From positions 3,782,001 through 3,846,000 of the forward strand of contig JAHYIO010000001.1 in assembly GCA_020543525.1 (NCBI GenBank): a stretch of 64,000 nt of DNA. The letters are read 5' to 3'. Shown one piece after another: positions 62,301 through 62,941 of this stretch; the stretch's first letter is position 1, and every line of letters begins with the position of its first letter. The notes beneath the pieces are model-generated. The model had not been told where the DNA came from. It made no database searches and was given only the letters and a program-made list of their open reading frames with translations. This DNA comes from Coriolopsis trogii. Taxonomy: Eukaryota; Basidiomycota; Agaricomycetes; Polyporales; Polyporaceae. A program made the position numbers and the translations under genes.

Positions 62301-62941
62301 AATTCCAGCATCGGCAAGATATCTGCGGGCACCTCCTTGATTGCCTTCACATGGGAGAGGCAGAGCGACCGTTCACACTTATCGCACTCGATGCAGTCAC
62401 CTCCATTCTGACAGAGATAGCAGAACTTGTAGTAGTCAGCCCAAAATGTACGTGAAACCGACAGTCGAACGACCTACTGGATCGTGATGGTCCTCTAACG
62501 ACGTGATAGGTGTGAGCTCCACCTGGGTAGGCGTGTCAACCTCTTTCGCCTTCTTCTTGCCTTTCTTTGTTATGAGTGCCATTTTCTTGGTTGGCACTGG
62601 GGTGCCAATGAGTTAGTAGTTCGTCCCTAAGGAGGTGCTACATACGCGGTTGGGCTCTCGGTACAGCCCCGAAGACATGCACAACGTTGGCGTTGGTGTC
62701 ATTTGTCTCGTCAACATAAACAATCCCTGCGTCTTCCGGTAGGTACACAGGAGTGGTGTCCGTTTCGGCTATCTTTGGCAAAGGTGCGCTTGCCGTCTCA
62801 TCCGGAGCTTTTCCTGGCGTGTGTTCCAAGTTCAAGTCAGTCAATCGCACAAATCAGCGAGTGGCAGAATATACTCTTCAAGTTCATACGAGGTGCTGCC
62901 TCCCCAGTGGAATTGCGTGCCGTTTGCTTTGTGCGAGCCAT
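59311..62941 (-). pseudogene. Large TET/JBP-KDZ-associated cysteine-finger protein gene with a histone H3-like N-terminus, several nonsense codons
   Basis: Minus strand. Exon 1 starts at 62941: [18 protein letters not shown], then MNLK; a GTATAT donor leads to exon 2 (KAPDETASAPLPKIAE, VYLPEDAGIVYVDETND), then a Lys-rich exon (PTKKMALITKKGKKKAKEVD), then 62425-62240 with a PHD/ZZ-like finger (CYLCQNGGDCIECDKCERSLCLSH, FICLACH). Further exons read GLYIKSTGGPFFQDG, KKLLYIDAPYNFEY, FFIYTHSEKGSGDLFYAKG, ITMGLLTCGALIQ, and HTDVIVFS, SFVWSHQHIAPFGEKVPI, stop, CPDCGKF. The TAG at about 61190 stands where Gln would fit, and more in-frame stops follow. C-terminal parts (59.3-60.5 kb) contain HGWNQGMTIKHWTFAF and MTLYFYQVFRQLFDRSKELGP. 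Large proteins with such finger, THSD and FVW-H-PWG motifs recur near TET/JBP genes in mushrooms; their role is unknown. Confidence 0.6.

Follow-up and report, generated by a model that had tools for sequence, protein, structure and literature searches.

A family of Agaricomycete proteins that join a histone H3-tail mimic, a PHD-like finger and a predicted caspase/CHAT-like domain in one chain

In a 64,000-nucleotide stretch of the Coriolopsis trogii genome (contig JAHYIO010000001.1, positions 3,782,001 to 3,846,000; hereafter the window), we examined a minus-strand gene whose first exon encodes a near copy of the N-terminal tail of histone H3. The gene belongs to an Agaricomycete family with a solid architecture: an H3-tail mimic (residues 1-21), a linker, a PHD-like finger, a predicted caspase/CHAT-like fold and a Cys-rich C-terminus. 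Judged by its sequence, the family protein is an H3-tail mimic and no histone. We propose, with a probability of roughly 45%, that the protein's own finger binds the tail as a ligand and that this contact gates the protease-like domain; docking, gating, a free N-terminus and peptidase activity are all things that we infer.

An earlier note on this DNA, drawn up by a model from the letters alone, had described a minus-strand first exon at 62880..62941 with a near copy of the H3 N-terminus and a GTATAT donor. The near copy is confirmed. From the minus-strand ATG at 62941 the exon reads ATGGCTCGCACAAAGCAAACGGCACGCAATTCCACTGGGGAGGCAGCACCTCGTATGAACTTGAAGA, followed by gtatat, and its product is identical to the host H3 tail at 16 of 21 residues, Met included and with Leu20 among those kept. 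A back-translated ARTKQTAR pattern found four sites in the 38.8-Mb genome, namely exon 1 and three H3 genes (two read through, the third over its first 27 codons), while the reversed pattern used as a control found 0, which excludes chance. A looser H3-tail pattern added only a paralog on another contig (C33), with the control again at 0. The likeness of exon 1 to H3 is neither chance nor an H3 pseudogene. A profile of 11 relatives matched solved histone H3 chains (E 1.3e-9), aligning with their N-terminal part only, and no histone-fold match stood among the Pfam results listed for the N-terminal part of the window protein, the C33 protein, the window open reading frames (ORFs) and the relatives.

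Two in-phase donors are available to exon 1, c/gtatga at 62889 and a/gtatat at 62874. We rejected the former because it loses Leu20, present in 13/13 of the tails compared below, and preferred the latter because it alone retains Leu20 and because the resulting 67-nt phase-1 exon resembles the 64-nt phase-1 exon of the paralog. The start at 62941 and the GTATAT donor of the note are therefore borne out, and the exon end shifts to 62875, by which Leu20 is additionally kept. The gene model, all on the minus strand, is as follows.

62875..62941, minus: exon 1, H3-tail mimic; 67 nt, phase 1, donor a/gtatat at 62874; placed from sequence.
62646..62813, minus: exon 2, linker; phase 1; placed by splice sites and phase, with the paralog's exon 2 in the same phase.
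62478..62596, minus: exon 3, basic linker as far as the finger; phase 0, with the paralog's exon 3 in the same phase.
62240..62425, minus: exon 4, PHD-like zinc finger (FCYLCQNGGDCIECDKCERSLCLSH...FICLACH); 186 nt, as in the paralog; acceptor AAG.
61874..62184, minus: exon 5, first part of the predicted caspase/CHAT-like domain; 311 nt, as in the paralog; in-frame TGA at 61905-61903.
61720..61822, minus: exon 6, FFIYTHSEKGSGDLFY with the conserved His; 103 nt; placed with the relatives' predicted fold.
61526..61659, minus: exon 7, GLLTCGA with the conserved Cys; 134 nt.
60926..61469, minus: exon 8, end of the protease-like domain and C-terminal Cys-rich part; placed by alignment with the paralog and relatives.

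With the coding pieces of the window gene as queries, one paralog was found in the genome, on contig C33 (two exons matching, each at 39% identity), while the linker exon found only itself; the count of two copies is a lower bound, as only the best candidates were scored. Read exon by exon, the paralog encodes 557 aa in eight exons with no stops. It starts MVRTRQSARRCVGGTADRKPL, a worn H3 tail (12/21 matches) beginning V-R-T. Because the paralog shares all eight exons, their phases and the lengths of exons 4-7 (186, 311, 103 and 134 nt) with the window gene, there are good grounds for taking exon 1 to be spliced onto the finger gene, as predicted from sequence and as the earlier note had held in joining it in phase to a cysteine-finger gene. 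A separate H3 pseudogene and an H3-like start missing from every homologue had both been raised there; what we found is a paralog with the same eight exons and an H3-like start, and a tail in 11/15 fungal relatives. An exon 5 end at 61911 was considered and dropped, since the homologous exon continues to 61874 with the TGA inside it. Predicted acceptors ending in AAG instead of CAG or TAG occur at 1/7 positions in the window copy (62425) and at 3/7 in the C33 copy (5299, 5793 and 6498 in the local numbering of that locus), on the basis of frame and homology only.

The window gene extends to 60926, where it ends in a terminal TGA (60928-60926), and carries three in-frame stops: the TGA of exon 5 (61905-61903) and, within exon 8, TAG at 61192-61190 and at 61069-61067. 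All lie after the finger, and the His and Cys motifs are still readable despite them. The window copy, in which tail and finger are still encoded, is probably decaying or truncated; if it is not decaying, it would give a shortened product that has tail, linker and finger and breaks off early in the domain behind them. An imperfect tandem repeat with a 166-bp unit (63347-64000; 3.8 copies, 74% matches) starts some 400 bases upstream of the H3-tail exon and extends to the window end.

Three homolog searches, each scoring only the approximately 8,000 candidates with most shared words, yielded at least 15 fungal relatives from 10 species, and the family is probably larger; three animal CHD5-type proteins (P0015-P0017) were excluded from this count. 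An H3 tail is present in the annotated protein of 11 of the 15, from eight species: Earliella scabrosa (P0001, P0006, P0008, P0011), Dichomitus squalens (P0007), Ganoderma sinense (P0009), G. leucocontextum (P0010), Polyporus arcularius (P0012), Suillus variegatus (P0013, whose annotated start lies upstream), Pleurotus djamor (P0014) and Lyophyllum shimeji (P0018). No H3-like sequence stands at the annotated start of P0002 (E. scabrosa), P0003, P0004 (Sparassis crispa) or P0005 (S. latifolia). P0003 is a short model with a late start, and the other three reflect either a wrong annotated start or genuine loss. The UniRef name of P0009 (G. sinense GSI_12273) opens with 'Peptidase S53 domain-contain...', and its C-terminus extends beyond the family end; it is possibly a merged gene model.

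We then compared 13 tails, those of the 11 database relatives and the two genomic copies (P0002-P0005 were left out, and P0013 was trimmed to 450 residues from its internal MARTKQ start). T3, Q5, G12, A15 and L20 are present in 13/13; A1, R2 and A7 in 12; K4, S10 and T11 in 11; R8 and R17 in 10; and T6 and P16 in 9. Few or no tails keep K9 (3), G13 (3), K18 (2), K14 (0) or Q19 (0). K9 gives way to Gln (4), Arg (4), His (1) or Asn (1), so the reported K9-unmodifiable tail is mostly a family trait (10/13), with three members that keep the lysine; the change at K14 noted in the window copy extends to all 13 tails. Three of the four lysine positions are among the five lost of 20 (hypergeometric 0.032, relatedness ignored), which by itself is a weak sign of preferential lysine loss. 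Mean pairwise identity, Met included, is 62% over residues 1-22 and 76% over residues 1-13, compared with 14% in the linker, 40% in the finger, 32% in the protease-like domain and 25% in the C-terminus. The tail of P0006 lacks R2 and K4 (MAGTQQTARRSCGEQAAHIAL); its same-species paralogs keep their tails better.

The DNA encoding the tail has diverged more freely. At identical residues, the window exon shares 5-7 of 15 codons with the H3 genes, which share 12-17 of 20 among themselves, and the window and C33 tails share 2 of 9. Silent codons have drifted and residues are kept; the tail peptide is therefore held while its DNA drifts. Any H3 capture would be old, given the 5-7/15 shared codons, and these counts do not support a recent acquisition from the host's H3 genes, whether by capture or by gene conversion. 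The suggested capture of an H3 gene's first exon likewise finds no support in that form: in the two host genes examined, the H3 frame continues uninterrupted past Leu20, and the likeness to the mimic ends at L20. We also considered the H3 R17-K18 codons (CGTAAG) as a latent splice donor at the fusion point and dropped them, as the likeness continues to L20.

A finger lies in the same chain as the tail in 11 of the 13 tailed members, beginning between residues 54 and 211; P0013 and P0018 are without a pattern-detected finger. Most members have the spacing C-x2-C-x8-C-x2-C, with ligands five and six Cys-His, not His-Cys. Compared with solved structures, the P0011 finger matched TRIM66 (8.5e-4), PHF21A (0.0039), TRIM24 (0.0048), CHD4 (0.023) and BPTF (0.071), the last of these a methyl-K4 reader, and the relatives' profile matched the CHD4 PHD finger at 1.1e-6. 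Judged by the finger of one relative (P0011), the PHD-like finger seems closest to readers of unmodified H3K4. PHD fingers that read H3K4me0 (PHF21A/BHC80, TRIM24, CHD4) are thus among its closest solved sequences and share the spacing of most members; they differ in that the family has Cys-His as ligands five and six and falls below the Pfam PHD cut-off (best E 0.18 among 14 relatives, with no match above cut-off among those listed); the finger is a putative reader of this class.

The domain behind the finger is predicted to adopt a caspase/CHAT (alpha/beta caspase) fold. The relatives' predicted structure has the caspase alpha/beta arrangement, and a His-before-Cys pair, the H and C of IYxH...GDLFY and LxCG, is invariant in a 7-sequence alignment. 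Among 16 members scored by pattern, the His was missed in P0011, P0012, P0013 and P0018 and the Cys in P0012; by eye, P0011, P0013 and P0018 have a His at that place, and P0012 is without this region. As in clan CD peptidases of the caspase/CHAT type (SAVED-CHAT, MALT1, caspases), the His follows one strand and the Cys a later one. The family differs from these in having an H3 tail and a PHD-like finger as partner domains and in giving no Pfam peptidase match above cut-off among those listed for the window, C33 and relatives' proteins. At the curated cut-off Pfam gave nothing for the C33 protein or for the window gene's N-terminal 266 residues, taken from an earlier model with the 62889 donor. 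Over 14 relatives, only weak matches were seen, mostly to zinc fingers (best, TFIIS zinc ribbon, 3.6e-4; cut-offs were known for the first of the 14 only), and none of the PADLOC models matched in four relatives. In two predicted models, order is higher over residues 15-25 than over residues 1-14, and bridges occur at residues 18 and 22.

We favor the tail as ligand of the protein's own finger because it is the simplest reading that uses all the parts. Removal of Met would expose a free ART(K) end, which would dock in the protein's own finger, either in cis, reaching across the linker, or in trans, from one molecule to another. The contact would hold the protease-like domain in one state, and the switch could be competing nucleosomal H3 or modification of K4, the H3-tail lysine that is usually kept; with K9, K14 and K18 lost, K4 would be the mimic's main writable lysine. 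A natural parallel is PAF15 (PCLAF), a non-histone protein whose H3-like N-terminus (VRTK, compared with ARTK) is bound in the manner of H3, at 2.2 uM, by the PHD finger of UHRF1; binding is lost on changes to its Arg or Thr (PMC7060239). The matching positions are R2 and T3, kept in 12/13 and 13/13 family tails, and the C33 paralog, like PAF15, starts V-R-T. In the same study, altering the K4-equivalent lysine made little difference, so a K4 switch does not follow from PAF15. In PAF15, moreover, the reader is another protein, whereas the family has mimic, H3-reader-like finger and caspase-like domain in one chain, with a 20-residue match. Self-mimicry has a precedent in the BAZ2B PHD-bromodomain, where an intramolecular histone-mimicking linker lowers H3 binding by the PHD finger (PMC5663869). 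That linker is a lysine-rich stretch with H3-tail-like charge, while the family has a near-exact H3 N-terminus whose alpha-amino end may be free, followed by an enzyme-like domain.

A less probable but possible alternative is that the mimic faces outward, recruiting or titrating host H3K4 readers and writers (COMPASS, PHD and WD40 proteins) while avoiding H3K9 marks, the finger being only a chromatin anchor. This agrees with the well-kept residues 1-8, with the loss of K9 in 10/13 tails, with P0013 and P0018, which have a tail and no pattern-detected finger, and with the PAF15 account (PMC7060239), in which an H3-like N-terminus works on another protein's PHD finger. It does not explain why an H3-reader-like finger accompanies the tail within one chain in 11/13 tailed members, nor why A15 and L20, which lie beyond the ART(K) end held by PHD fingers, are kept in 13/13. 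Titration of H3K4 readers, which the earlier note had put forward, may occur; the protein's own H3-reader-like finger is a simpler partner.

It is unlikely, though the fold and its conserved His and Cys would suit it, that the caspase-like domain has the tail as its substrate or pseudosubstrate, with the enzyme clipping H3 tails and its own altered tail either blocking the site or being removed on activation. The conserved mimic stops at Leu20, and the better order of residues 15-25 with bridges at 18 and 22 would also fit; however, the bridges may be a single local turn, nothing indicates which bond is cut, and the strict retention of T3 and Q5 is left unexplained.

Still less probable is a competitive pseudosubstrate of one host histone enzyme, for example an H3K9 methyltransferase or an LSD1-type demethylase. 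A7-R8-x-S10-T11-G12 is mostly kept around a mostly replaced K9, and EZHIP offers the example of a non-histone protein that inhibits PRC2 by an H3 K27M-like mechanism (PMC6513997). EZHIP, though, concerns the K27 region, whereas the family mimics the N-terminus and mostly retains K4; K9 is replaced by Q, R, H or N rather than by Met, three members retain K9, and the finger is left without a role. An artefact (chance match, H3 pseudogene or mis-spliced first exon) might be suspected from the three in-frame stops and sequence-predicted splicing of the window copy, but is refuted for the family by the same-genome paralog with its unbroken frame, same exon phases and H3-like start, by the 11 database relatives with a tail and by the 0 control matches.

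The gene had also been assigned to a mobile TET/JBP-KDZ cluster, an assignment that found no support. Pfam gave 9 Tet_JBP and 36 KDZ matches in the genome, all on contigs other than those of the window (C1) and the paralog (C33), where there was none at E 0.001 among the best candidates scored, a result that leaves room for very distant TET-like proteins; 10 ORFs of the window's right part gave none at E 0.1. With two copies found at ~39% identity, the gene resembles an ordinary gene duplicate more than a multicopy transposon. The sole match above cut-off among the 10 window ORFs is an integrase core domain at 49911-50855 (minus), where a GAG-pre-integrase match just under cut-off points to a copia-like retrotransposon remnant. 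A 12-bp perfect tandem repeat (5.8 copies) lies at 52361-52429. A 263-aa open frame at 53984-54772 (minus) gave no Pfam match at E 0.1; by eye its motif resembles that of a 2-oxoglutarate oxygenase core, and it may have prompted the TET/JBP label.

The component parts of this family are of known kinds, and we did not meet their union in one conserved family, or any description of the family, among the matches listed from the open-access literature searched. Known histone mimics there are mostly short motifs in viral or regulatory proteins; here an entire family of fungal proteins opens with a 20-residue H3 N-terminus and also carries an H3-reader-like finger and a caspase-like domain. The family can serve as a natural test of the H3-tail residues that a partner requires, with T3, Q5, G12, A15 and L20 always kept and K9, K14, K18 and Q19 seldom or never. 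H3-tail antibodies or N-terminal proteomics in such fungi may also detect these proteins. Our proposal predicts a chromatin-gated protease, accessible with purified domains. More tentatively, a caspase-like protease of mushroom-forming fungi might be kept off by its own H3 tail, which has mostly one writable lysine left (K4) and would lie in its own H3K4me0-type finger, and be released by chromatin state, by an H3K4 methyltransferase or by an invader that attacks H3 tails. If true, histone mimicry would gate such a protease, which might serve as a decoy-type alarm during genome conflict or in programmed cell death.
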